Assembly (NCBI GenBank): GCA_030998225.1
Contig: JAPYXD010000743.1
Location: 1-64,000 of the forward strand
Reading direction: 5' to 3'
DNA length: 64,000 nucleotides
Source: Diplolepis rosae
Taxonomy: Eukaryota; Arthropoda; Insecta; Hymenoptera; Diplolepididae
Numbering within the stretch: position 1 is the first letter of the stretch; each line of letters opens with the position of its first letter. Of this stretch, positions 4,056 to 29,470 are shown piece by piece. The notes below the pieces were generated by a model. That model searched no databases. It had not been told where the DNA came from and saw nothing but the letters and a program-made list of their open reading frames with translations. Both the position numbers and the translations under genes were made by a program.

Positions 4056-4717
4056 CGTTCTCGAAACAGAGGAAATGTTTTGCGGAGAGTTTTCCGTTAT
4101 AAGATTATTGTTTTATTAAATAAAAAGGGAATGCTGGAGAGCATTCGTAAACTCTCCTTCGAAACTTTCATCACTCAAAGATCTTTCCAAATCTTCGTTC
4201 GTAGATCCTTCACAATCAGATTTCTGACTCGAACTTCCACTTCCAATTGCACCTTGCTTCATTTTTGCATAAATTGAAAAAGCACTTGCACCAGGAAAAT
4301 ATAAAATAACCAAATATATATAGTATCCACAAACACTTTCTAATTCCTAATTTCTCCAGTTTGGGATGAGTCAGTGAGAACATTTTAAATAAAGTGTAAA
4401 ATAAATGTACCTTTCAAATAATTAATATTAATATAAACTATGCAAAATATATTGACAGCATTAATTATTATTTATAATTTTTAGTATTTGTTATTTAAAT
4501 TAAATTCATTACAAATGATCAATACTTATACTAATTACATTGTAAATAATTAACAATGTATAAAAAGTAAAGAAAAAAATCACTGGCAAAAAGACCGCTT
4601 TACTGTGCTGAAGGACTCACCGGCCTTTACTCACTCGGCGCGTGCGAAAACCTCAATTTTCAAAACTCAATTTCTCGAAATAAGTGCGGTAGTGGGTCCT
4701 GTCACTCCGGCATTATT

Positions 4718-5800
4718 GTCACTACCTACATTATCGAGGATTACGCGTCCAGCATATGGAGAAGGATTTGAGTGCCAAAGAGACGTTAAAAGCGACTTCG
4801 AATCCCACTCAGATAATGACTTCTGAGTGACTTCGACGTAGTTCTTTCGGTTATGATGCATTCCATGAATGTGGGATCAGAATTGGCGCGATCCAGCATG
4901 TCTAAAGAGACCTACTCATGGTACTTTTTTTTTATCTTCGAACATTTTAAAATTGCTAGATAAAAAATTGTGAAAAGCAGTTTTTTATTGTCTGTCAGTA
5001 TGTTTTCCAAATAATGTTGAGAAAGATATCTTGTAAATTGAAAAAGTTGTCTAACGAGATACATCAGTACATACAGTCAGGCCTCAATCATTTGAACTTA
5101 GATGATTTGCACTTCCCTAGTCTGCTGCTTTTACCATCGTGCAAACCATCGAGCCGACGCATGGTTCTACAAGAACACGTATGTATGAATAAAAATCACC
5201 TACGATATTCAAGCTCCAGATCTATTAGACCCAGAGGGTTGTTTTTTGAGGAGAATCTAAAATGATTCTATGTATTTTTACTCATCTATAAATCATTTTG
5301 ACGTGGTTAAGAGGTATTCAAATCCAAGACAAATTTCTTAAAAGTAGCGATTGATGAAAAAATCAGGGTTTTCTAAAACGCTGTATCTGAAAAATTGTTG
5401 AGGCTCAAGCAATTTTTTCTTCTTAATTTTTCAGAATTTTGTCTACGGTTTTCTGTCAATCTTTTTTCCGCTAAAATGCACAAGAGGGCAACAATCCACG
5501 CATATAATACTGGCTAACAAAATAGGTATGACCTATTAGTTCATGGAATAAGATATATCACTTCCAGAGTAGTTTTCTGTGCTGAATTTAAATCTGGCCT
5601 TTGTAAAAAAATTTTAAGCAGAAAGAAATACATGAAGTCGAGGCGTTTTTCGACGCAGAATCCATTGATTGTTTTGTTTTTTCGATATCTTATACAGTTC
5701 CTGAGATAATTAAAAAAAAACTTTTAAAAAACACGAAAAAAATGGTTTTACAGAAAACCTTGTGTTTAAGTGTATATCATTTATTTTCTAGTCAACTGTA
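4718..5800. other. No gene recognised
   Basis: AT-rich sequence to the right of the transposon. An 83-codon open frame at 5014-5265 has no recognisable motif. The short segment 4727-4745 resembles the first bases after the satellite (TACATTATCG...AGGAT), but the likeness does not extend. I see no RNA gene or coding exon. Confidence 0.5.
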
Positions 5801-6089
5801 TGTTGAGACGGTCACATCAGCTGACACACGCCAAGACTAAAGACCACAGGCACGACACCTACTAGACGGCATAGCAGGTACGCTGAGGTAGCGGTTCGGA
5901 CAGTCTCCGCTAGGTTCGCAGCGCGAGCCTGCCCACAGCAAACTCGAAACCGTCGGTCTATAATCACGCGTACAAGATCTTCCAAAGACACCTCCCAGAT
6001 GAGTTGCAAAACCCTAAGAAGGAAGTCTACTGATAGAACTCCAAGGGTCTACGAAAAAACGGTGGAATTGGTAAATATGTTTGCGAGTT

Positions 6090-6369
6090 GATTTGGTTAC
6101 GCTGCCCCAGGCTCCAAATCACTCATTAATTTTTTAAATTTAATTTAATCTGGGTACGCTGCTCCAGGCTCCAGATAAATTCCTCTCAGTTAAAAATTCT
6201 CTCTGGGTACGCTGCCCCAGGCTCTAGAGAGGGTTCTTTTTTCCGCCACTAGGTACGCTGCCACAGGCTCTAGTGTGCGTTTTCTCGAAAATCTCTCCCT
6301 CTGGATACGCTGCATCAGGCTCCAGAGACGAGAGATTTGGAACTGGGTACGCTGCCACAGGCTCCAGTG
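6090..6369 (+). repeat. Six hairpins with constant loop and covarying stems
   Basis: Six units about 40-60 bp apart share a 17-nt core of form N-TACGCTGC-NN-CAGGCT. Each core is flanked by its own complementary arms: GATTTGG/CCAAATC (6090-6120), ATCTGG/CCAGAT (6148-6176), CTCTCTGG/CTAGAGAG (6199-6231, one G-T pair), CACTAG/CTAGTG (6247-6275), CTCTGG/CCAGAG (6299-6327) and ACTGG/CCAGT (6342-6368). The arms differ between units yet always pair. Inside the loop CTG/CAG can pair too, with the only variable bases in its tip. This is the pattern expected of a structured RNA (or DNA) element under selection. Its role is unknown; packaging, translation or dimerisation are possibilities. Confidence 0.85.
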
Positions 6370-6530
6370 AGTAGAGTCACCCCTACCTCAGTTCATCTTC
6401 ATCGTGATCTGAACGCCATCTATGAGGCTATATTGATATTTCTTGGATTGCTTCAACCGTTATAAAAATTTGTATTAGCGACAGAGTATTTCGAATTAGC
6501 TGTGTAATTTGTCTACATTACCGCGATATC

Positions 6531-7440
6531 AGCCCCATCTACGCGTACTTGATAAATATTATTCAAAGCGATATTTTGAGTATTATAAAGTTACGCTAAC
6601 GGTAAGATATTGTGAGCAGTCTAAAGAGACTGAGTTCTATATATATTTTGTCGCGACTTTAGCGCCATCTACGCGTTCTTGATAAATACTATTTAAAGCG
6701 TTATTTTGAATATCATGTAGTTACACTAACGGTAAGATATTGTGAGCAGTCTAAAGAGACTGAGTTCTATATATATTTTGTCGCGACTTTAGCGCCATCT
6801 ACGCGTTCTTGATAAATACTATTTAAAGCGTTATTTTGAGTATCATGTAGTTACACCAACGATAAGGCATTGTGAGCAGTCTAGAGAGACTGAGTTCTAT
6901 ACATATTTTGCCGCGACTTTAGCGCCATCTACGTGTTCTTGATAAATATTATTCAAAGCGATATTTTGAGTATTATAAAGTTACGCCAACGATAAGGCAT
7001 TGTGAGCAGTCTAGAGAGACTGAGTTCTGTATATATTTTGCCTCGACTTTAGCGCCATCTACGCGTTCTCGATAAATGCTATTCAAAGCGATATTTTGAG
7101 TATTATAAAGTTACGCCAACGATAAGACATTGTGAGCAGTCTAGAGAGACTGAGTTCTACATATATTTTGTTGCGACTTTAGCGCCATCTACGCGTTCTT
7201 GATAAATACTATTTAAAGCGATATTTTGAGTATTATAGGGTTACGCCAACGATAGGGCATTGTAAGCAGTCCAGAAAGACTGAGTTGTGTATATATTTTG
7301 CCGCGACTTTAGCGCCATCTACGCATTGTTGATTAATATTTCTCCAAAACATTACTTTATGTGTCATGGAATTGCTTAAGTAACAAATCATTTGTCAAAA
7401 TTTGTCAAAGCAGACGGAGTTCTTAATTTATTCCAGCGCG
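6531..7440 (+). repeat. 130-bp tandem repeat, about seven units, in the LTR
   Basis: The phrase AGC(G/C)CCATCTAC recurs at 6531, 6661, 6791, 6921, 7051, 7181 and 7311, exactly 130 bp apart, with diverged outliers near 6409 and 7446. Each unit holds a short hairpin CAGTCT-NNNN-AGACTG with a variable 4-nt loop. Only the last unit has a mismatch in the stem. The arrays lie in the presumed U3/R part of the LTR, where repeated units often act as enhancers. Confidence 0.85.
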
Positions 7441-7751
7441 ACATTAGCGCCATCTACGCTTTGTCAGGAAAGACTGAAATATATCTAGCTTAGCGGTGAT
7501 AATATTACTCTTGTAAACCACAGACTGTGGACGCTTGGTGACGTCACTCCAACTAGTGCGCCACCAACGGTCCAAACAAAACTCTAAGTCATATGAATAG
7601 CTCTCTACCACTGTAATTCATGGGAATAAAGACTGATGTTATACATTTAAAACGCCTACCTATCATTTCCATACCTTTGGGTCCATAAATCATAGACTAG
7701 TTTACTAGGTTAGTTAAGGATATATTATAATAAAGTAACGAACTCTCTCAT

Positions 7752-7769
7752 TGGCGCCCGAACAGGGAC
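7752..7769 (+). promoter_or_regulatory. Primer binding site, tRNA-Lys type
   Basis: TGGCGCCCGAACAGGGAC is complementary to the 3' 18 bases of a tRNA-Lys, the same primer site used by several lentiviruses and by some insect gypsy elements. It follows the LTR end after a single base, the normal spacing. It fixes the element as a plus-strand LTR retroelement and the LTR end at 7750. Confidence 0.92.
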
Positions 7770-7826: not shown

Positions 7827-9106
7827 ATGTCGCGTCCTCGCGGAAGGCCAAATAAAAAGGGAGCCGCTGATCGTGCGGAGCTTGATGAAATTTCATCTCA
7901 AGCATCGGACATTGTTCAAGGGGCGAGGGCTCTAGAAACCCCCCCCCCCCCCCCCCGACATAAACGCGGATTACACCCTTCCTAACATTGGAGCTTTAAC
8001 AGGGGCAATCCCTAGAAGCTCGTCAAGACGTAGAACTCTCCATGACGAATTAAATATGGCATTAGATAAATCCACTGTCAGAGGAAGAGAAGAACCACGA
8101 GAAGATTCACTAATGAATAAATATCAAGAATTGAAGATTAAGATATTACTGAGCAGGTTAGGTCTTTGAGAAACGTCAATGAGATACGTTTTCAGATCCT
8201 CGAGGGACGTCTGAGAGATTGTATGGACCAACATCACCTGTTAAATTCCTTGAGGAACTGAAGGATTTTTGGACAGCAGTTAGGCCCACAAGGGGGCAAA
8301 CCGCATTTATCATAAGTAGTTGCCTGCAAGGGACTCCCAGGGACTGGTGGGATTTAGTGAAGGAGGAAGGAGATGACTTTCCTCAATTTATAACAAAGTT
8401 TAAACGCAGGTACTGGGGAGAGGAAACCCAGCACTCAGTTAAAACAAAACTAGAGTTTGGAAGTTACCAGGCCGGACGTGAGGGGACAATGACAGCATAC
8501 GCCATTAAGATGTTTAGAGAGGCCAGAGGATTGGCCCCTGCCTCTACAGTTCAAGAAATAATTCAAAAGCTCGCTCGACACTTTAACGAAGAAATAAGGT
8601 CTACGATTCTTAGCAGACCAATAAGTACTCTGGAGAGTTTACTAGAATTACTAGAGAGATTCGATAACACCGGACCCTTGAATGCACATCGAACTGATAA
8701 CCCCATTCCAAGGGACACCTGGAGAAATAGAAATCCATCCAGCCCACAACAATATACTAGGCATCTTGGAGACAGGCCTAATCAATATCGACGGAACCAA
8801 GAAAGTCAAGGAAGGACAGTTAAGGAGGAAAACTGGAGAAGAACAGCACGAAACCTGGAGCCACCACAGGATAACATTCGAGTAATGGACATTACAAACA
8901 ACGTAGACGAAAAATTTGAAAAGGAAGCAGAGATGTCGGGAAACTAGAATCGTCTGGACCCTTACACACGCCGGGGAAATCAGACGACGAGATACTAACT
9001 ATGAGGCATGTGAGCACATTAGATTTTCGCGAAGAATTGTTAGAAGAAGAAGAAAACCAACCAATAAGGAACATCTTCAAATACATTCAAGTTTATTTAT
9101 TATAAT
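7827..9106 (+). pseudogene. gag of the tRNA-Lys gypsy-type element, broken
   Basis: The frame opens at ATG 7827 with a basic N-terminus, meets a run of 18 Cs (7939-7956) at which the coding frame changes, and stops at TGA 8167. A further change lies around 8145-8220. The capsid part is open from 8219 to 8944 (no ATG; the frame only becomes open there) and contains the SPVKFLEEL and GTPRDWWD motifs of Ty3/gypsy Gag. A basic, Arg/Asn/Gln-rich tail replaces a CCHC knuckle. Another frame change follows, with an acidic tail to about 9103, after which coding ends. No protease, RT or integrase of this element follows, so it is truncated. Confidence 0.75.
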
Positions 9107-17462: not shown

Positions 17463-17467
17463 GATAT

Positions 17468-19725
17468 TGTTACGGGCGGTCCAAAGTGTGCAATATTTTT
17501 TTGAAAATCTTTTTATTAATATACAAAATCTAATTTATGGAATGTCAATTGCTTTAGAAGTGAATGAACTGCACACTTTTGAACGTTCGTAATCTGACTG
17601 CATTCCAGTGGCTCATGCAACTCAACATTTCTGGTCATGCGAGCTGGTCTTGAGACGTAGAGTAATTCATATTCTAGTTATTTAAATACATATAAATCAA
17701 ACCTTTAAAAGTTTGAATAAAACTTTTTAAAATAATACTATTTCACCCTTTTGTTTTTCAGGTGCATTAACCAGTTAACTGTGATTGACGAGTATACTCG
17801 TCATAAATACATGGAACTTGCCATAGTCGCCACAGTTAACTGGTTAATGTTTTATAAAGTAGATTACTTGATAGCGAGAGTGCATAGGCACTCGATCGCT
17901 ATGAACTATAAAGGTATGAAATGTGAGAAAACCGAAGAATGAGTGTAAAGTGAGAGCGATTATATAAGAACTAGCATCAGCGGAGAATGAATAGAATAGG
18001 AAAAAGAGAACGAAGGAGAGAGGAAGAGAGAGCGAGAGATATCCAGCACACGTACATCCATGAACTGTTTGTCGCCACAGCTTTCTGCCGTTTTCCCATT
18101 TCTTCTTTCGTTCGCCCATGCACATGCCCAATATATCGGTCTCTTTTAGAAAATCTTGATGCGCTCTGCTGTGCATCGCGAGGCTAGCATTCATCTCATA
18201 ATTGCATATCCTCCTCATACACCTAACCTTGTTCAAATGCTTTAGCCAGCTGATCTCTCGCGACAAAAGCCACGTGCTTTTTGTAACTAAAACCCAAGGC
18301 TCACCTGAATAATTAAATAATTATGTTGCAGCTTTAATCCACCTAAAAATTATAAGCCTAGACTAGTTAAATATATATATATATTTCGATTTACTCTGAA
18401 ATATACTAGAAACTAAAATTGTTTCTACAATTTGATGACCATGCATCAAATACTAAAAATTGATGAGCACATTTCCTTTCTCACGTTAGGTGTAGAAAGA
18501 GGGGAGAAATAATTGCATTCTGAAAATCAGCAAATGGCGCAATAACCACATCAGCATTTGTGCAAATTCCTAAATCCTCCCTGCCATTATTACCTTTGTC
18601 CAATCATTAATTCCTAAATCGTCAAAAAACCCTACCATGCTCACCTCGCGATGAACTAGTAAAACGGATCAAGGCAAAATCAAATTCGCAGTATTCTGAG
18701 TGTCTTGACCGGATTCAGACCTTAGAATAATAAAGAAAACATTTTTCTTTTATCGTGCCCATCTGCGACCCAGATCGACAGTTCCTAGATTCTCGTTAGT
18801 TGATTAAACCCGTAAAACCTTATCTAACGAAATTATTTATTTTTGGAATCGTGTCGGGCGGACGTAAAAGACAAAAACCTTCATCTGGACAGAAGCAATA
18901 CATATAATATATATTGAAATATACAAAATATATTTTTAATATATCTTTCTTCGGCGGACTATTTTAAAGTCCAAGTAGTTTAACAAAAACGGCAAAAAGG
19001 TGCGCGAAATCGCGGAAAACTTAATACTTCCGAATCTCAAAATGGTAGTGATAATTTTTCATAAAATATTTGAATTAGATTTAATAGGAAAGTTCTAGCG
19101 GCGAAAAGGGCGAGTTTAAAAGCACTCAACCCTTTTCCGGTTAAAAGCCAACCGTTATTTTCTCTTATTAAACCTAACAGAAAGTGGCAAAAACAGTGTT
19201 TGTGTGCGCGCGCGCTATGCGCGACTCGCAAATAGGACAAGTTGTGATTTCGAACAACAATCAACAAAAACCTTCCTGCCCAGTCAAGGACGAATAGGAG
19301 AGCCTAGGGGTAAACCTCCCTCTCTCACACTCCCTCACACTCTCTCAGGACTGGTAGTTATATGAAAAACTCATTGTAAGGATGAGCAGGTATCGTTACA
19401 GTTAATACACACACATATATATATATATATATACATTCTTATTATGCTTAGATTTGTGAAACCAAATAAATTCAAGAACTGGGAATAATTTTATTGCCTT
19501 CAATTCATCCTTTCATTTAGTTTTCCAAAAAGTTTTTTTTTTGCATACAGGGTATAGGCTTCTCAGTCAGAGGAGAGAGCAAACACGATCCCAGATTAAA
19601 AACAACTTTTGATTTATTTAATTTTTATTTTCTAAATTTAAATTTGGCAGTTTGGAGCCTCAAGCGAACGTGTATTTGGATATAATATTTTTATTTATAT
19701 TGAATTTAATTATTCGTACGTAATA
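17468..19725 (+). repeat. 5' LTR (2258 bp)
   Basis: Its start and end match the 3' LTR throughout. It includes a 19-bp-arm hairpin (17765-17849), GA-rich runs, a pyrimidine-rich CTCTCACACTC stretch near 19320, a (TA)n tract near 19410, and AATAAA at about 19465. Relative to the 3' LTR it has two extra blocks: about 34 bp near 18040-18073, and about 22 bp near 19282-19303. A 63-codon open frame (17751-17942) is kept in both LTRs but spans the hairpin, and I do not call it a gene. Confidence 0.92.
17765..17849 (+). promoter_or_regulatory. Conserved LTR hairpin with inner palindrome
   Basis: CATTAACCAGTTAACTGTG (17765-17783) pairs perfectly with 17831-17849 (19 of 19). The 47-base interval begins with a perfect 16-bp palindrome GACGAGTATACTCGTC (17787-17802). 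The same structure is intact in the 3' LTR (27586-27670). GTTAAC cores inside the arms are themselves palindromic. It could be a protein-binding site or an RNA stem-loop in the transcript; the sequence cannot decide. Confidence 0.8.
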
Positions 19726-19731
19726 AACTGA

Positions 19732-19745
19732 TGGTGGCAGCGGTG
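19732..19745 (+). promoter_or_regulatory. Primer binding site, tRNA-Leu type
   Basis: TGGTGGCAGCGGTG lies six bases after the LTR end. Its complement ends CACCGCTGCCACCA, the 3' end of eukaryotic tRNA-Leu (AAG/TAG type) with CCA added. From knowledge of tRNA sequences I judge Leu the most likely primer. Spacing and orientation are right for a plus-strand element. Confidence 0.75.
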
Positions 19746-20887
19746 AGATTTTTGTCTTGCGCTGTACCCAGCTACGTTACACGTTGCGGAGTCATACTCA
19801 CTAGCCGCTTGGAACTGCTTATATTATTTCTGACTTGAATAGTTTCTGTTTTTCATATTGATAATAATTAATAATCCCTTTTATTCCTAAAAATTGAGAT
19901 TTTTAGAATTTGCTTTTGTGCTCTTTAGCAGAAAGCCAATTCTGAAATTCAAGCTCTTGTGCTCTTTAGCAGAGAGACTGAATTTTAAACTTTAATTTTT
20001 ATTCATATTTTCTTTCATTAAAGACTTACCCATATTGCATATTTCTCTTCTTGAATCATTTATTGTTTTTACCTTCTCTCATAATCTATGATCAATCTCA
20101 GGCCTTCAAAAAATAGTTGTTGTGAGGGTTTTCTCCTGTAAATTTTATATACCGGCGGAAGGAGAATAATATAACAGAATTTAGATTGAGTTTTTATTGA
20201 ATCAAAATTCTACTGGTTCTTTCGCTCTGTAGTGCGTACGACATAGGCTCTGTTGCCAACGTTGAGCGTTTGAATTAATTATTCCCCTTTTTCCATAGAA
20301 TAAAGAGAGGAAAATTAAAATCAGAATTTCTCTTTTGATTTGAATTTTCTGAAAAATTCTTCCGCTCTGTGATACGTACGTGAGACGTAGGCTCTGTTGT
20401 CCACGTCGAGCGTTCGAATACTCATTATTCTTTGTCCTATTACTTACAAATTCAATCTACGTAAATATCTGGTCGATCTTTATATTTTCGATTGATGATA
20501 TATATTGATCCTTCGGAATAAATAATATCGTCTGAAAAGACTGAATTCCCGTTCAAGTATTCCCGTACCACATACCGGTGGAAGGAGAATAATGTAACAG
20601 AGTTTTGATTGAGTTTTTATTCAATCAAAATTCTAGTGGTTCTTTCGCTCTGTAGTGCGTACGTGAGACATAGGCTCTGTTGCCAACGTTGAGCGTTTGA
20701 ATTAATTATTCCCCTTTTTCCATAGAATAAGGAGAGGAAAATTCAAATCGGAATTTCCCTTTTGATTTGAATCTTCTGAAAAATTCTTCCGCTCTGTGGT
20801 ACGTACGTGAAATAATAATAAAACAAAGTTCACTGCAAGCTGAAGATTCCCAGTTCTAATAACAGGCCACTATCAAGTACATTTATT
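19746..20887 (+). repeat. Leader with a duplicated block of about 235 bp
   Basis: Segments 20151-20384 and 20574-20810 are direct copies (both begin ACCGG(C/T)GGAAGGAGAATAAT and end in an ACGTACGTGA phrase). A third, partial repeat of the phrase with GGCTCTGTTG and GAGCGTT lies at 20388-20425. Earlier, TTGTGCTCTTTAGCAGA occurs twice (near 19915 and 19960). The leader has no long open frame. Such reiterated untranslated leaders may hold packaging or translation signals, which is inference. Confidence 0.75.
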
Positions 20888-21059
20888 TTGTTTATCTTTC
20901 TCTTTCACCTGTATATTGTTTTTTTATGTGTGTGCATAAGTGTCTGTGTATATATGTTCTATTATAGGCATATCACTATACTCATAAGTTTATCCACCCA
21001 TAGGAACACAAAAACCTATTTAAAAATAAACTTTTACAACCTTTTAAAAATTCACGTCG

Positions 21060-22029
21060 AATTTTCCGGATCCTCTGCACATTTTAAAATTTCGAACGTC
21101 AATCGAACCCGTAATTTTAGGGAGCCAATCGGTAACGACCCTGACGAATCAAGTACTGAAGCATACCCGAATATCACTAATTCATTATCCGGACCCAACC
21201 CTAATATCGCGCCTCCTAATCAATCAATGAATTTAGATGCTAGTGTGACTATGGCCTCGGTATTAGAGTGCATGACTCTTCAACAAAGCACCTATCACAT
21301 ACCACAATTTGACGGTAAAAATCCACGACTGAAGGAATTTTTACAGGACATCGCAAACGGCGTAGTATACATCACGGAATCCACGGAATCCGGTTTCATA
21401 AAAGTTGTTTTAAGTAAACTCAACGGTGTCGCGCGAGAAAGCGTTAGGGACAAAAGATTTAATCGGGTAAACGACTTAATGGCAAATTTAAAAAAACGTT
21501 TCGCCCCTTCGAGGAAATATCAATAGTACTTCGAGTCTATCGTTAACCTACGGATGAAACAAACGGAAACCGTAAGCGACTATTACGACCGAGTACAGGG
21601 TTTGCTGAGTGGGCAAAGCACGCGATCGAGAATAAATATACGCAGGTTCATTATGCTGGTACTAGACGCTTTCATTAAGGATCTCCCAGACGAAAATCTA
21701 CCTTCGTGAACACCAGAAATCCGAGGGACCTTAGTGAAGCCCTCGAACTTGCCCTCCACAGAGAGGAAAGACTAAGGCAAACGGAAAAACTAAGGCCCAC
21801 CGCGTCACCTTACCACATCATGCGGCAAAGCGATCACCTAGCCCTTACACCAGACAGATGGTTAAACCAGATAAGGCAGAAAGAGCAAAAGGCGAGGTTG
21901 CACCAGAAGTCCGCAACCCACGCAATCTAACACCTCCACATCAACCATTTCATCAATACCCGCCACAGTACCCTTCATACCCACCACAGTTTCCCTACTC
22001 TTATCCCCCACCATACCCTCCCTCATAAA
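21060..22029 (+). pseudogene. gag of the 12-kb element, with PPxY tail
   Basis: The open frame nominally starts at 20888, but its first 50 codons are hydrophobic and look like untranslated leader. Gag-like sequence begins around 21080. The capsid region carries QSTYHIPQFDGKNPRLKEFL and continues past a TAG at 21524. Another frame change lies near 21706. The last part (about 21927-22026) is Pro/Tyr/Gln-rich and contains PPQY and PPPY, which match the PPxY late-domain motif that recruits Nedd4-family ligases for budding. No CCHC knuckle is seen. It ends at TAA 22027, next to a deletion junction. Confidence 0.75.
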
Positions 22030-22034
22030 TTTCC

Positions 22035-22611
22035 CACGACCGAGGACAGTCCGGGCTATAAGAGACTACGCAAAGCTAGCAAAACCGTTGTCCAATCTCC
22101 TGAAGAAGAACACAAAATGGGAATGGGGACGCTCGCAACGGAAAAGCTTCCGAAAAATACGCAGATACCTCTGCAACGAACCCGTGCTCCAATACCCCGA
22201 CTTTAACAAGCCCTTTAAGTTAACCACAGATGCCTCTGAGCATGCTGTCGGGGCTATGTTAACCCAAGAGAAGGATGGAGTAGACATACCCATCGCCTAC
22301 TTTTCCAAGGTGATGAATTCCTGCGAACAGAACTACTAGAAAGCAGAAAAAGAATGTCTGGCGGTGTTGTACGCTGTCACGAACTTTCGCCCATATTTGT
22401 ATGGAAGGGAGTTCGTGCTGGCCTGCGACTACGAACCAGTTCAGTGGATGACTTATATTAATAATCCAGGAGCAAGGTTGCTGCGATGGCGACATAGACT
22501 CCAGGATTACCAATATAAGTTTGAATATAAACAAGGGAAACTGAATAGGGGTGTTGAAGCCTGTCAGGAAACCCTGTGGCTAACGAACAATACTCAGAAT
22601 CTACTGACTTA
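22035..22611 (+). pseudogene. pol: RT thumb and first (gypsy) RNase H domain
   Basis: The segment begins in the RT thumb (RDYAKLAKPLSNLLKKN), so protease and the RT fingers and palm are missing. RNase H follows with TTDASEHAVGAML (first Asp), AEKECLAVLYAV (Glu) and ACDYEPVQW (second Asp). The terminal motif where the fourth acid of Ty3 RNase H sits (usually VADALSR) reads GVEACQET, so the last catalytic Asp is absent. A TAG at 22337-22339 splits the frame. It lies directly upstream of a second RNase H. Confidence 0.8.
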
Positions 22612-22779
22612 ACTGACTACTATGATTCTGACGATTCCAATAAATCCTTCAAATCCTCTTCCCTGCGAAACAACTCTGAAAACTATAAGAGCTCCACATC
22701 AAAACCTTCAGACATCCGAAGGGTATTAGTTTTTACGAACTTAAAGCCAACCCTTGTAGCGAAAACGGACAACACTGCC

Positions 22780-23140
22780 CCTAAAAGTGTACCCCCTAGA
22801 CTTCCAGGTCCAAGCCCTTGGTCAGCCCCATTACAGGACAATTACATAGATGTTTACGTCGACGGAGCCGAGATTGAAGCAGCAACCATAGCAGCTCAAC
22901 AGGCTCACGAGGCTGGCATCAAGAAGCTGAGGATAAAGACTGATTCCAAGATGGGAGGCAAACGACTGGAAAACGTACGAGAATAAACCAGTCAGGAATC
23001 GATCCGAGTTTGAAAAGATGAAAACAGCCCTGGAACCCTTGGACATAATTTGGGAACATGTTCCAAGTCACAAAGGAATCCCAGGAAACGAAATGGCCGA
23101 TAAGCTAGCCAGAGAGGGGATTGAAGCCTTACCGTCTATC
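22780..23140 (+). pseudogene. pol: second, RNase H1-like RNase H domain
   Basis: After a Ser-rich spacer of about 70 codons comes a second RNase H with the motifs of the RNase H1/archaeal type: NYIDVYVDG (Asp, near 22842), AEIEAATIAAQQA (Glu), LRIKTDSK (Asp), then WEHVPSHKGIPGNEMADKLA (conserved His and last Asp, 23049-23108). Between VDG and AEIEA about 35-40 residues usual for the family are missing, and the frame changes near 22968. The basic Trp-rich segment expected between the third and fourth motifs is present in the alternative frame there. All four acids are represented, unlike the first domain. A dual RNase H arrangement is known in vertebrate retroviruses and plant Tat-lineage gypsy elements. 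Confidence 0.78.
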
Positions 23141-24229
23141 GACAACAAAGGAGAAGAGTCACCTCCCGAACAAATGATCGTTGATTTCCTCATACAATCA
23201 CTGGACAGTGAAGGCAGCAACGGAACCGATGAGGATATCCCCAGGCAACGCCAACCACATAAAAACTTAAGAGAAGATCTGCAGAAATCTTTCTCAAAGC
23301 TGGATAAATCGATGGAAAACCGAGGGCTCGAGAGCTCCGAAATCGTTCATGATTCTATATGGTGGGATCATGAAAATATGCAGGACGATCATCGAACTCC
23401 GTGCACCTATGTCTCCGAAGGCGAAGAAGACCGAGAGCTCCTGGAAAACTTAGAACCTCTCGATCCCTGTGGAGAATATGACGACGTCGAGTTCTCCAAT
23501 AGAGTAAAGAAATTTTTTGAAAAATACGAAAAGGAAATAAGCAAGGAAGCATGCACACCACAAGATTGGGAAACCGCACCCAGTTCCTCTACAAGCCAAG
23601 CACAAACCGCAGGCGAACCTAGAACAAATGGGCAGATAATCAAGTCAACGGAATTCTCGAACAAAAATTCCGGGGTGGCGAGAAAAAGCATGGTCCGATT
23701 TAAGGATACTCCTGAGGAAATCGAATCTTCCTCAGAGTCCCCAATAATTGGGAAACAGCCCCTTCAAAGGTTGCCCCTTCATGACATTAGCAGCCCCTGC
23801 AACGCCAGGAGCCAGATCAATGCCCTTCGCAAGGTCAGTCATCGACCCAGATGATGGCAGAAAGGACTCGATAGGAAGAGGAGCAGGAATGAAAACAAGA
23901 AGACTGGAACAAACAAAACCATTTCACGAACCCGTCAATGGTCCCAGATTCCATCCTAGCTCCATCATTAACGTTAAGATACCGTATGTGGACGACGCAC
24001 CTACCTCTATCGGACCCTACAAGAATCTCCCAAATACAGACCAAATACCAATTAGCATCTGCACAGATGAACCTAATGTCATCCACCAATGGGCAGAACC
24101 TTTAACTTTCAGACACGACAATTATGGTCACTTTATATCCGAAGATTGCGAGCCTACGAATCCCATAGCGAAACTTCTTGTGGCTACCGAGCGTCTTGAC
24201 CTACAGGACCTCTGGGGATGCCGCCCTAA
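23141..24229 (+). pseudogene. pol: unusually long acidic linker before integrase
   Basis: Open frames 23018-23854 and then 23748-24287 (frame change near 23830) cover about 360 codons with no enzyme motif. The first part is rich in Asp, Glu and Ser and carries a charged helix-like stretch (NRVKKFFEKYEKEISK). The second includes YVDDAPTSIGPY and AKLLVATERLDLQDL, with hydrophobic spacing suggesting a folded piece. Gypsy elements usually have few residues between RNase H and integrase. I cannot assign a function. Confidence 0.6.
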
Positions 24230-25435
24230 GAGGGACAAGTCCTTGTCACTCCGCACGGCCGACATAAGACATATTCCGTTGTCATAAAAAGACGACATAA
24301 TAAAATGCAAAATAAAATGACGGAAATCGTGGCAGACATATTCCGGGGTGGTAACATCACCATTACGCTTTGCCACGGAAAAATCGAAGTTCCGCCGGTA
24401 GAAATCCGACCCAAAATTATCGCTGAATATCATGGCAGCCGTATAGGTGGCCATAAGGGCATTACGAAAACTTACCGCCGTATCAGAGAGCGATATACAT
24501 GTCCTGGTTTACAGGACGAAATCAGTGAGTTCATCCGAGGATGCAGAAGCTGCCTTGAACGAAAACTCGTCCGAGCTCGTACCCGTGAACCAATGCTCAT
24601 CACTGACACTCCTGCTGAGCCATTCGAGAAGGTATCTCTTGCTACTGTCGGAAAATTGCGCACAACGCCAAACGGGAATAGACACATCCTGACAATGCAG
24701 GATAATTTTAGTAAATACTGCATTGCAGTTCCCATACCGGGCCTAAAAACGACTACTATTGCTCACGCGGTTGCAACAACTCTCTTCTCCCAATATGGCG
24801 CGCCGAGGTACATCCTAACAGACAGGGGAAGGAGTTTTATCAGCAAATTAATGAAACATCTCGAAAGACTATTTAACGTGAAGCAACTAACCAGTTCCGG
24901 ATACCGACCACAAACTAACGGATCACTCGAGAGAAGCCATATTGTATTGACGGATTACATAAAACATTATGCTAACGATTATGACGATTGGGATCGATTG
25001 TTTCCTTTCGCCATGTTCACATATAACACGTCAGTACGTGAGGCCACGAATTTCTCACCTTACGAGTTAGTTTTCGGGCGAGTCGCCAGGACACATAGCT
25101 CGTTTCCTCAGGGTACGGAACTCGAAACCTATGGATCTTACCTACGCGACCTAATAGTAAGAATAACCGAAATCCAGAAAATTGCCCACAAGAACCTCAT
25201 CAATGCGAAATCTCGCTCGAAGGAGCAATATGATAAGAAAACTCGACCACTAAACGCGAAAATCGGAGATACGGTTTACGCCCTTAAGGAAATTAGGGAC
25301 GGAAAATTCGACAGTCGAGCCACAGGGCCGTACGCCGTCGCCGGTTTCACAGAAAACAATAATGTTATTCTGGAATCAGAGGACGGCGAACAGATCATGA
25401 AGCACAAAGACAAACTCCTGCTCGCGCACTGTTAG
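24230..25435 (+). pseudogene. Integrase of the 12-kb element, first catalytic Asp lost
   Basis: The frame is open from about 24230 through the ATG at 24305 to TAG 25433. The N-terminal zinc motif is present (EYHGSRIGGHKG with two His, then GCRSC). The core domain has ILTDRGRSF (second Asp) and TNGSLERSH (Glu), but the first acid, normally Asp just before xVGxL, is Ala (SLATVGKL, about 24648). This should abolish DDE strand transfer. A C-terminal domain with a GPY-type motif (ATGPYAVAGF) follows, as in many gypsy integrases. Length and domain order are complete, which contrasts with the damaged RT part. Confidence 0.85.
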
Positions 25436-25471
25436 AAACGCTGCGATTAAGGGAAGATAACCCGAGGAATA

Positions 25472-26746
25472 ATATGCATTATTTAAATACCATGAGGCTC
25501 CAACCTAATAATTTTCCACACGGAGAAGCAAATAGAGCTCCGTCATTCTAAAAGTATGAAGTGTATCAAGAACTTGGTCAGGCTACCAGGAAGATCACTG
25601 AGCTTAAATACACTGAAGCCTTAACTCGAGTCCTTCGAGCGAACGAAGCAGCTGTAGAGGAATACATAAGAGCAACCGACAAAATCTTGAATGTTCTTCG
25701 CGACGCAAGGCAGAAACAAATGCATCCAGGACTATTGACTCCCAGCCAACTGGAACTAATTTACGTAGACATCCAGGACCATCGCCCAGAGGTGTCCTTC
25801 CCAATATCCGGACCTATTGCGGACATCGAGGAACTGACCAGCGTATCCACCGTCACCTCATTATACAATGGAGGAGTCCTTAAAGTACTGCTGGATACAC
25901 CATTATTGGGAAGAGCTAACCATCTGATGTATCAACTACATCCACTTCCAGTGCCCCAGGCCATCTTAGGAAACAACTCCGAGAAGGCATATATTCTACA
26001 TCGCCGTAGAAGAATCACAAAGGACTTAAGTTCTAATGATCCACCGGGATGTTGCGGCATGTACCGAACTACCAGCTTATAAGATTTGTAAAGGAAATTT
26101 ACCTGTCAACGAGAATGGAAAATTCAGAACTTGCGAAGCAGAGCTTCTGCTGAATCCATCGCTATCCACCTTCAGAATTCGTAACATTCAAGTGACATAT
26201 GAAAACCAGTTTGATTGTGGTTTAATAGAAAGCCTAGGCGGATGGTTGTACTCTCTCCAAAAGCCGACCATTGCTATAACAACCTGTCCTAATCAGGCCA
26301 ACAACCAAATCACATTAAAAGGAACCGGCATAATCCAACTGGCTCCAGAATGCGACCTTAGAATAAAGGAAAGGACACTCCCAGATACCACCAACCGGAA
26401 GGGAGAAACCGAAATGATCTACGCCCCACTGCTTCACTTGAACATCTCTGCGCTGACACCAGCCCTACAAAAGTTTCAAGCATACATACCTACAAGAAAA
26501 TCTATGTCTGCTCAGACGAAGGAGACAACGCCTGGGCACAAAGTTTTCGAAACTAACAACAAATCCTTGGAGCATCTAGAACAACAACTGTATGACTTCA
26601 GCCTGGCCCGACGAGCAGGAAACAGCTAAATAAGGATGATCCACGGATCCTACCTCGGACTAGGCGTCATATCTATTGGACTACTTATATACATCCTCTT
26701 CCCCAGGATTTCAAAACTAATGATCAACTGCAATCAACGACACTAA
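25472..26746 (+). pseudogene. Env-like gene of errantivirus/baculovirus F type, broken
   Basis: Downstream of integrase, where errantiviruses carry env, two open frames overlap: 25561-26082 (no ATG at its start; an ATG lies at 25472 in a short frame) and 26036-26629. Together they cover a coiled-coil-like charged part, a region typical of Baculo_F-like proteins (MYQLHPLPVPQ), and a Cys-containing ectodomain (CKGNLPVNENG, ITTCPNQANN). After a TAA at 26627-26629 a short frame 26636-26746 encodes a membrane segment (VISIGLLIYILF) and a short tail. In the family this protein mediates membrane fusion. Here a frame change near 26040 and the stop before the anchor make it nonfunctional. Confidence 0.72.
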
Positions 26747-27288
26747 CGAGGAACGAGAGCTGATCAATGTGTCGACTTCAGTACCATTAACATCAAGGAA
26801 GAGCAGGAACCAACCCCCGCACGGAACTCTCTGCCACAAACGACTACGGAGACAGGTACGCAGTCATACCTGCTGCACCACCAAGGAAACGACCAGCGAA
26901 TACCCCCGTAATTCAGCTACCATCTCAGACTCTCCAACAAGCATAAGAACCAGATAAAACCAGTCATGGAACATGGCCATTAAAATTCTCGAATCTAAGA
27001 TACATTCACCGACAAAACATTTTTTTTTATATTATTTTTATATATTATTATTATTTTAACTGTACTATCTATATTGTTTTTCTTTAGGAAATGAACCTGT
27101 TAGAGTAGGACTCTTCTTCTTGTGTACTATACTACAAAACTAGACATTGTAAATTCTCTCACAGCTTGATGAAAAGAAGCGACTGCATCTGAACAACATA
27201 AGGCTATCATTCCTTATTCTTATTCGTACTCATCTCTAGACCACCCTTGTTTGTCGGGGACGAATACACTCAAAATTCCGGTGTGGTT
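26747..27288 (+). other. 3' untranslated part before the right LTR
   Basis: No convincing gene; a 62-codon frame at 26769-26957 lacks motifs. An AT-rich stretch with T and TTATTA runs lies at 27022-27060. No long polypurine tract touches the right LTR; the nearest purine-rich phrase is CGGGGACGAA at 27255-27264. Confidence 0.5.
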
Positions 27289-29470
27289 TATTACGGGTGG
27301 TCCAAAGTGTGCAATATTTTTTGGAAAATGTTTTTATTAATATACAAAATCTAATTTATGGAATATCAATTCCTTTAGAAGTGAATGAACTGCATACTTT
27401 TGAACGTTCGTAATCTGATTGCATTCCAGTGGCTAATGCAACTCAGCATTTCTGGTCATGCGAGCTGGTCTTGAGACATAGAGTAATTCATATTCTAGTT
27501 ATTTAAATACATATAAATCAAACCTTTAAAAGTTTGAATAAAACTTTTTAAAATAATACTATTTCACCCTTTTGTTTTTCAGGTGCATTAACCAGTTAAC
27601 TGTGATTGACGAGTATACTCGTCATAAATACATGGAACTTGCCATAGTCGCCACAGTTAACTGGTTAATGTTTTATAAAGTAGATTACTTGATAGCGAGA
27701 GTGCATAGGCACTCGATCGCTATGAACTATAAAGGTATGAAATGTGAGAAAACCGAAGAATGAGTGTAAAGTGAGAGCGATTATATAAGAACTAGGATAA
27801 GCGGAGAAAGAATAGGAAAAAGAGAACGAAGGAGAGGGGAAGAGAGAGCGAGAGATTGTCGCTACAGCTTTTTGCCGTTTTCCCATTTCTTCTTTCGTTC
27901 GTCCATGCACATGCCCAATATATCGGTCTCTTTTAGAAAATCTTGATGCGCTCTGCTGTGCATCGCGAGGCTAGCATTCATCTCATAATTGCATCTCCTC
28001 CTCATAGACCTATCCTTGTTCAAATGCATTAGCAAGCTGATCACCCTCCACAAAAGCCACGAGCTTTTTGTAACTAAAACCCAAGGCTCACCTGAATTCT
28101 TAAATAATTATGTTGCAGCTTTAATCCACCTAAAAATTATAAGCCTAGACTAGTTAAATATATATATATATTTCGATTTACTCTGAAATATACTAGAAAC
28201 TAAAATTGTTTCTACAATTTGATGACCATGCATCAAATACTAAAAATTGATGAGCACATTTCCTTTCTCACGTTAGGTGTAGAAAGAGGGGAGAAATAAT
28301 TGCATTCTGAAAATCAGCAAATGGCGCAATAACCACATCAGCATTTGTGCAAATTCCTAAATCCTCCCTGCCATTATTACCTTTGTCCAATCATTAATTC
28401 CTAAATCATCAAAAAACCCTACCATGTTCACCTCGCGATGAACTAGTAAAACGGATCAAGGCAAAATCAAATTCGCAGTATTCTGAGTGTCTTGACCGGA
28501 TTCAGACCTTAGAATAATAAAGAAAACATTTTTCTTTTATCGTGCCCATCTGCGACCCAGATCGACAGTTCCTAGATTCTCGTTAGTTGATTAAACCCGT
28601 AAAACCTTATCTAACGAAATTATTTATTTTTGGAATCGTGTCGGGCGGACGTAAAAGACAAAAACCTTCATCTGGACAGAAGCAATACATATAAGATATA
28701 TTGAAATATACAAAATATATTTTTAATATATCTTTCTTCGGCGGACTATTTTAAAGTCCAAGTGGTTTAACAAAAACGGCAAAAAGGTGCGCGAAATCGC
28801 GGAAAACTTAATACTTCCGAATCTCAAAATGGTAGTGATAATTTTTCATAAAATATTTGAATTAGATTTAATAGGAAAGTTCTAGCGGCGAAAAGGGCGA
28901 GTTTAAAAGCACTCAACCCTTTTCCGGTTAAAAGCCAACCGTTATTTTCTCTTATGAAACCTAACAGAAAGTGGAAAAAACAGTGTTTGTATGCGCGCGT
29001 GCTATGCGCGACTCGCAAATAGGACAAGTTGTGATTTCGAACAACAATCAACAAAAACCTTCCTGCCTAGGGGTAAACCTCCCTCTCTCACACTCTCTCA
29101 CACTCTCTCAGGACTGGTAGTTATAAGAAAAACTCATTGTAAGGATTAGCAGGTATCGTTCTAGTTAATACATATATATATATTCTTATTATGCTTAGGT
29201 TTGTCAAACCAAATAAATTCAAGAACTGAGAATAATTTTATTGCCTTCAATTCATCCCTTCATTTAGTTTTCCAAAAAGGTTTTTTTTGTATACAGGGTA
29301 TAGCTCCTCAGTCAGAGGAGGGAGTAAACACGATCCCAGATTAAAAACAAATTTTTATTTATTTAATTTGTATTTTATAAATTGAAATTTGGCAGTTTGG
29401 AGCCTCAAGCGAACGTGTATTTGGATTTAATATTTTTATTCGTATTGAATTTAATTATTCGTGCGTAACA
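27289..29470 (+). repeat. 3' LTR (2182 bp)
   Basis: This is the direct copy of 17468-19725, sharing the GGTCCAAAGTGTGCAATATT start, the hairpin (27586-27670) and the GTAACA end. It is followed at once by the duplicated target gatat. It is shorter than the 5' LTR by two blocks and a contracted TA tract. Confidence 0.92.

Follow-up and report, generated by a model that had tools for sequence, protein, structure and literature searches.

Six short units stand in a row on the forward strand of the 64-kb window, by which we mean the whole stretch of DNA analysed here. They share one core, and the arms flanking it differ from unit to unit and are complementary within each. The locus raises the question of whether this row is an RNA structure of a mobile element, a DNA-level signal or a by-product of copying, and to what use it could be put.

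The hairpin array and its host element

The core TACGCTGCNNCAGGCT was detected six times without a mismatch, starting at 6098, 6155, 6208, 6254, 6306 and 6348. Allowing up to two mismatches added no further copy in the 64 kb, the chance mean being 0.12; given this low expectation per window and the lack of any reversed-pattern match in 757.7 Mb, a chance repeat was dismissed. The register was arm, one base, 16-nt core and arm, with arms of 5-8 bp being complementary in all six units. All units lie on the forward strand: hairpin 1 at 6085-6125 (core 6098-6113, arms GATTTGG/CCAAATC), hairpin 2 at 6142-6182 (core 6155-6170, ATCTGG/CCAGAT), hairpin 3 at 6195-6235 (core 6208-6223, CTCTCTGG/CTAGAGAG with one G.U pair), hairpin 4 at 6241-6281 (core 6254-6269, CACTAG/CTAGTG), hairpin 5 at 6293-6333 (core 6306-6321, CTCTGG/CCAGAG with a AAATCTCTC/GAGAGATTT extension in the RNA fold) and hairpin 6 at 6335-6375 (core 6348-6363, ACTGG/CCAGT). 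The original prediction of six units with a common core and complementary arms was borne out by these data. It had placed them at 6090-6369, and the array is indeed there; with 12-nt arms this row of bulged hairpins, presumably part of U3, spans 6085-6375. A covariance model run on the window returned the six units only, all of which had been used to train it.

The RNA fold of 6080-6380 yielded a z of -2.90 with none of 100 shuffles as good. In the minimum-energy structure units 1 to 5 formed hairpins of their own and unit 6 paired elsewhere, so that the whole-array fold recovered five of the six. The array of a second locus (L225) behaved similarly with a z of -2.29, 3 of 100 shuffles as good and about six of nine units in the common form as read by eye; whole-array folds hence miss some hairpins. 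Folded as DNA, the window array had a z of -2.66 with 3 of 100 shuffles as good. Because the values for RNA and DNA are alike, energy alone cannot separate the two.

The single loop of 17 nt that had been proposed for each unit did not hold. The predicted fold instead places a G.U pair next to a bulge of 3 nt (UAC), followed by an inner stem of 3 bp (GCU/GGC) and a 6-nt loop. Likewise, the inner CTG/CAG pairing of the proposal, a stem with a bulged G, was kept as an alternative only, because it fails in related units that have 5-nt loops or AUCACU. A search of Rfam gave no match at gathering score in the 64-kb window, and at E up to 10 the region 5780-6560 had seven matches, all of them far under gathering score.

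The host of the array is a long terminal repeat (LTR), as the original prediction had it. This is documented by TG...CA ends, a primer-binding-site-like sequence, a relative that is a solo LTR, and pairs of arrays flanking gag elsewhere in the genome (see below). The LTR of 1947 bp, the 5' LTR of a presumably gypsy-like retrotransposon on the forward strand, extends from 5804 to 7750 with ends TGAGACGG...CTCTCA; the 3' LTR lies outside the window. Homology to two further loci (L134 and L145) breaks off at 7750/7751. One base past the LTR end, at 7752-7769 of the forward strand, the primer-binding-site-like sequence TGGCGCCCGAACAGGGAC was identified by eye, which we take to fit tRNA-Lys. It is followed at 8219-8947 (forward strand) by a gag-like open frame of 242 amino acids with a weak Retrotrans_gag match (E 0.0023, under the curated cut-off). 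The solo LTR (L141) is located within a satellite; reading by eye, it has AAGT on each side as a target-site duplication and ends of the TG...CA type, TGAAACGG...CTCTTTCA.

Downstream of the array the LTR has tandem repeats of about 130 bp with AGCGCCATCTA at 6531-7465 of the forward strand, where 6531-7338 represents 6.2 copies and self-matches continue to 7465. AGCGCCATCTA occurs seven times from 6661 to 7446 and nowhere else in the 64-kb window; we assume that it resembles a CTCF site. GCGCCA(C/T)CT repeats were also seen in five of six related loci, with none in L226. On the same strand follow the palindrome TGACGTCA at 7539-7546 near the presumed promoter, presumably a CRE-type site, and AATAAA at 7625-7630 as the presumed poly(A) signal. 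From this order, i.e. array (the first of its cores 294 nt downstream of the start of the LTR), AGCGCCATCTA repeats, TGACGTCA and AATAAA, we infer that the array probably belongs to U3 and hence would come to lie close to the 3' terminus of full-length RNA.

Some neighbouring features of the window may be recorded here. A run of C occupies 7941-7957 between the primer-binding-site-like sequence and the gag frame, and a 51-bp satellite with 35 identical copies lies at the window edge (1-1786). A second LTR element at 17467-29468 has LTRs of about 2.2 kb that are 94% identical, and an integrase frame. Neither the core search nor the covariance model found the hairpin core in this second element. 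Its leader contains a repeated TACG...AGGCTC stretch; TACGTGAGACATAGGCTC at 20660 in the same leader was considered as a relative of the array and was rejected, its arms being non-complementary by eye.

Pairing of the arms in genomic copies

The source genome (757.7 Mb) contained 406 exact cores (175 + 231) compared to 0 for the reversed control, and a narrower core pattern had 107 matches. We extracted 94 stretches around a subset of the listed matches (100 of 406 and 100 of 107), which together with the window made up 95 loci. They contained 367 candidate units, of which 276 had an exact core. The units form 96 arrays with 1-7 members each at a spacing of mostly 50-60 nt; these array figures still include units dropped later. 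For further analysis 344 of the 367 units were kept, while 23 were dropped for having more than three mismatches or for belonging to a GGTTCTACCACC cluster. The 14 four-mismatch 'units' beginning with GGTTCTACCACC turned out to be a different LTR stretch and did not enter the pairing counts.

Clustering by left and right arms resulted in 97 groups, 33 of which had at least two members and were treated as arm types, a few of them chimeras of two types. Nearly all 33 arm types were complementary, one of them over 12 bp. A few units combine the left arm of one type with the right arm of another. An example is L145, where at 4600-4640 the left arm of hairpin 1 is joined to the right arm of hairpin 4 and the stem is broken; this chimeric unit looks like the product of a deletion between units.

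The common predicted fold begins with an outer stem of variable sequence, followed by a G.U pair. Next come a bulge of 3 nt (UAC or CAC) in the 5' strand, the inner stem GCY/RGC of 3 bp and a loop that mostly has 5-6 nt. In this first set bulge, inner stem and tip owe part of their constancy to a search pattern that fixed the core letters. Loops of 5 and of 6 nt are both accommodated in one frame of stem and bulge. The arms had been described as differing between units. Among the 367 candidate units they vary freely from the fifth pair outward, and the innermost four pairs are near-constant, CT(G/A)G opposite C(C/T)AG. When arms were read in the plain register, pairing dropped at the sixth pair and beyond (184 of 367 Watson-Crick), which suggests internal loops such as AGAGTG-AC-TCTGG with CCAGA-C-CACTCT in L200.

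Covariation of the arms was assessed by shuffling the partners. The first 136 units supplied 109 distinct arm pairs, in which Watson-Crick pairs occupied 600 of 872 positions versus 465 in the shuffled control (sd 10.5, maximum 496 in 1000 shuffles). For positions 1-5 of 218 distinct arm pairs the count was 900 of 1090 versus 766 (sd 8.7). Related copies are non-independent and p-values are therefore overstated. A set of 39 representatives used earlier had been chosen for good pairing; since it was biased it carries no weight, and random picks were used instead. With one random unit for each of the 33 types, 86.1% of the cells were paired compared to 19.7-60.4% when the arms were slid by 1-3 columns, and 39 cells had changed on both sides as against 15.9 after shuffling (0 of 500 shuffles). 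In the same 33 random units neither pairs with two-sided change (6 versus 5.1) nor pair types (17 versus 17.0) were more numerous than in shuffles. Paired change of the arms as originally predicted is thus upheld in that it exceeds both the shuffled and the slid controls, and it was also seen between orthologous units of other copies (see below).

Uncompensated change in other copies had been named as evidence against selection on pairing. Differences between types were mostly compensated. On the other hand, single copies do carry uncompensated changes: within types of at least three members, at positions 1-8, we counted 22 changes to G.U, 18 to A.C and 22 other single-sided changes versus four double Watson-Crick changes. 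Such uncompensated changes, near-symmetric with respect to G.U and A.C, are expected of dead, decaying insertions.

The array was located downstream of an LTR start on the same strand in seven of 24 long-flank loci, namely those in which the LTR start was visible (the window, L131, L132, L137, L141, L142 and L225). A search of the genome with the gag frame gave at least 150 matches, with 150 of 871 candidates scored. By coordinates, the succession array, gag, array on one strand was found at five places. At one of them the array pieces of L187 and L188, 10 kb apart, were 99.8% identical over 618 bp, and at another those of L200 and L201 (C376), 7.4 kb apart, were 100% identical over 697 bp; each comparison covered about 700 nt surrounding an array and not entire LTRs, and in both cases gag lies between by coordinates. 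Near-identical array pieces around gag indicate that array-bearing elements probably moved recently.

A database search with the gag frame yielded 20 unnamed relatives, while in viral contigs it had no match. Viral relatives were also sought with a single core; at least 120 stretches were retrieved with one match each in the 80 listed, and these were taken as chance. Two tandem cores were found neither in viral nor in prokaryote contigs. In L143 a reverse transcriptase frame is situated near the array (6481-7326), presumably of the Penelope type with a GIY-YIG-like end. It was rejected as a partner of the array: a piece shared by L143 and L138 flanks the array on one side in the first locus and on the other side in the second, so that the frame is apparently a separate neighbour. 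In L138 a long MITE-like inverted repeat, seen by eye at about 4363-4680, directly precedes the array.

A second set of arrays and the strand of the pairing

Three loci (L129, L143 and L138) had units with different arms and loops. A pattern derived from their seventh unit, GGTGYACGCTNNNNNNGGCTGCC, matched 88 places in contrast to 0 for the control, and 23 of these 88 places were aligned with L143 and L138 to give 25 rows, some of them incomplete. This second set has eight units, with a ninth being visible in L224 and L225. Orthologous units could therefore be compared. Unit 1 had arms CACTAG/CTAGTG or CTTCCAG/CTGGAAG. Unit 7 had CACGG/CCGTG or CATGG/CCATG, i.e. C-G in 11 and U-A in 8 of 19 distinct rows (23 found); pairs with two-sided change (1 versus 1.1) and pair types (2 versus 3.5) in unit 7 did not exceed the shuffles. 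For units 4 and 9 the predicted inner stem gained a fourth pair and the bulge was moved by one base.

L141 and L225 have a near-identical LTR start (at 4322 in reverse-complement coordinates and at 917, respectively) followed by very different arrays, that of L141 being of the first kind. A common LTR start with different arrays raises the possibility that arrays are exchanged as blocks.

Next to the pairing as such, the kind of mismatch is informative, because a wobble pair of the sense strand reads A.C on the opposite strand. For the second set, modal pairs were determined at 40 arm positions and comprised 35 Watson-Crick, 4 G.U, 0 A.C and 1 other, with one of the G.U pairs (unit 7) being fixed by the pattern. 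Counting all cells we obtained 719 Watson-Crick, 110 G.U, 21 A.C and 90 other. The pattern had fixed letters of unit 7 including three G.U pairs, whereas units 1-6 and 8 and the arms of the first set were free. Position 1 was U.G in 17, 20 and 17 of the 25 rows in units 5, 6 and 8, respectively, and C-G or U-A in 7, 4 and 6. The third inner pair was U.G, C-G or U-A, and C.A did not occur among the 130 cores of the form GCY-loop-RGC, 24 of which belong to unit 7 where the search pattern fixes U.G. These 130 were taken from 175 cores of seven units, unit 3 being left out, and 45 were set aside.

In the first set, positions 1-5 of the 33 types (165 in all) comprised 150 Watson-Crick, 6 G.U, 1 A.C and 8 other pairs; the observed 6:1 is not far off the shuffled values of 13.2 G.U and 7.9 A.C, and as evidence for a strand the first set alone is weak. 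In the 218 distinct arm pairs there were 68 G.U and 25 A.C. Energies were compared for 31 types with mononucleotide shuffles and gave z -1.83 for the sense versus -1.36 for the antisense strand (p 0.0058), the sense strand being lower in 21 of 31. The raw difference in energy between sense and antisense in these 31 types was not significant (p 0.083). For 54 units from eight loci z was -1.58 versus -0.89 (p 2.7e-8, overstated because the units are related), with lower values for sense in 42 of 54.

The prevalence of G.U over A.C on the sense strand argues for a structure in the RNA of the element rather than for palindromes in DNA, even though part of the asymmetry is fixed by the search patterns. 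It thus renders less likely, within that limit, the alternative raised in the original prediction that the units are DNA inverted repeats which no transcript crosses. Judged from the sequences, we favor the view that the pairing occurs in sense RNA.

Possible functions and comparison with known systems

On balance, the array is probably an RNA structure of the sense strand that serves as a multivalent docking element for a protein in post-transcriptional control. Its reading as RNA is based on comparison of sequences, that is on the pairing of the arms, compensatory change, the sense-strand bias and the array's position within the LTR; transcription of U3 at the RNA 3' end, binding of a protein and the step served are inferred. 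Transcribed from the 5' LTR, the full-length RNA would carry a copy of U3 at its 3' end, and this copy would fold into a row of hairpins, mostly five to six, or eight to nine in the second set. In the outer stem mainly the pairing would matter and the sequence would be free, while bulge, inner stem and loop would form a near-constant recognition surface that is shown many times. Its most likely use would be multivalent binding of the element's Gag or of a host RNA-binding protein, and the bound protein could then steer the RNA after transcription, e.g. in nuclear export, packaging or localisation.

If the array acts as RNA, it may, tentatively, be a nuclear export element for unspliced RNA located in U3. 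We know of no export element built from many like hairpins, and this lack of a precedent speaks against such a function. The RxRE of HTLV-1 supports it by a similar place in the transcript and a similar size, as PMC3434621 describes an element of 255 nt that reaches from U3 to R and has four stem loops. Further support comes from the CTE of simian type D retroviruses and the RTE of the mouse IAP, which according to PMC1363727 are structured cis-acting export RNAs of simpler retroelements.

Packaging is an equally conceivable, likewise tentative, step for an RNA structure of this kind, with the hairpins acting as repeated Gag-binding sites that select genomic RNA. Multivalency, a near-constant tip on free stems and the presence of the array in recently inserted copies would suit this function. 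However, a signal in U3 would sit on spliced RNAs as well, and the packaging signals of retroviruses are mostly found near the 5' end.

A DNA-level function, in which the units are protein-binding sites or cruciform inverted repeats of an enhancer or insulator beside the tandem repeats, is unlikely. The array is upstream of the presumed promoter, adjoins the seven AGCGCCATCTA repeats and folds as DNA too. Yet a DNA-binding site would need no paired arms, and here the arms vary and stay paired. In addition, two loop lengths are not easily tolerated by a DNA-binding site, and the G.U excess in both sets, partly pattern-fixed as noted, runs counter to it.

That the array has no function at all appears very unlikely. 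Template switching in reverse transcription or repair can copy one arm from the other and make matched arms without selection. But such copying would result in Watson-Crick pairs, whereas in units 5, 6 and 8 position 1 is mostly U.G, at letters that were free of the search pattern; moreover, a common bulge, inner stem and loop across very different arms would need another cause. Hairpins that serve as small-RNA precursors or as decoys for Dicer or piRNA factors would be short stems on sense RNA like these, but with arms that measure about 5-13 bp, are often interrupted by internal loops and vary freely in sequence, and without an Rfam match at gathering score in the window, this use is least probable.

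Returning to the docking element in sense RNA, a broader notion is that it stands for a new class of retroelement RNA control, namely a modular row of U3 hairpins that LTR families exchange as one block and that has a dedicated RNA-binding reader, coded by the element or the host, similar to the RRE and outside vertebrate retroviruses. We regard this as speculative at present, and possible. If a partner exists, it would mean a control system like that of Rev or Rex, or one based on Gag, in another kind of element. Outside vertebrates and yeast little is known, to our knowledge, about the cis-acting RNA signals through which LTR retrotransposons export, package and localise their RNA. Hundreds of copies with dozens of stem variants and one common tip offer a direct experimental handle on the partner. 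In the literature no such array was recognised from titles and abstract openings, a scope that excludes most subscription journals, and we file the array as a candidate new form of cis-acting retroelement RNA.

Among known systems, the lentiviral TAR combines a bulge of 3 nt in its 5' strand with a short upper stem and a 6-nt loop, features shared by the predicted hairpins with their loop of about 6 nt. TAR is a single hairpin at the 5' end of R, directly behind the transcription start; in contrast, there are several hairpins here, and from their place at 6085-6375 it is about 1.2 kb downstream to the presumed promoter (promoter and poly(A) signals at 7539-7630). The Su(Hw) insulator of gypsy is likewise a repeated short motif in a gypsy-like element; unlike the array, its repeats are DNA-binding, are located in the 5' leader and have no paired arms. 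We know of no CTE or RTE that is an array of like units, while the array described here is a row of such units. The likeness to CTE and RTE is one of general kind, the array being a probable structured cis-acting RNA of a retroelement as they are. Parallels in layout were noted with the RxRE of HTLV-1: the array is in the LTR, presumably in U3 and hence presumably at the RNA 3' end, and is of similar size. The RxRE is one folded domain bound by the virus-coded Rex, whereas the array consists of like hairpins that present one common tip.
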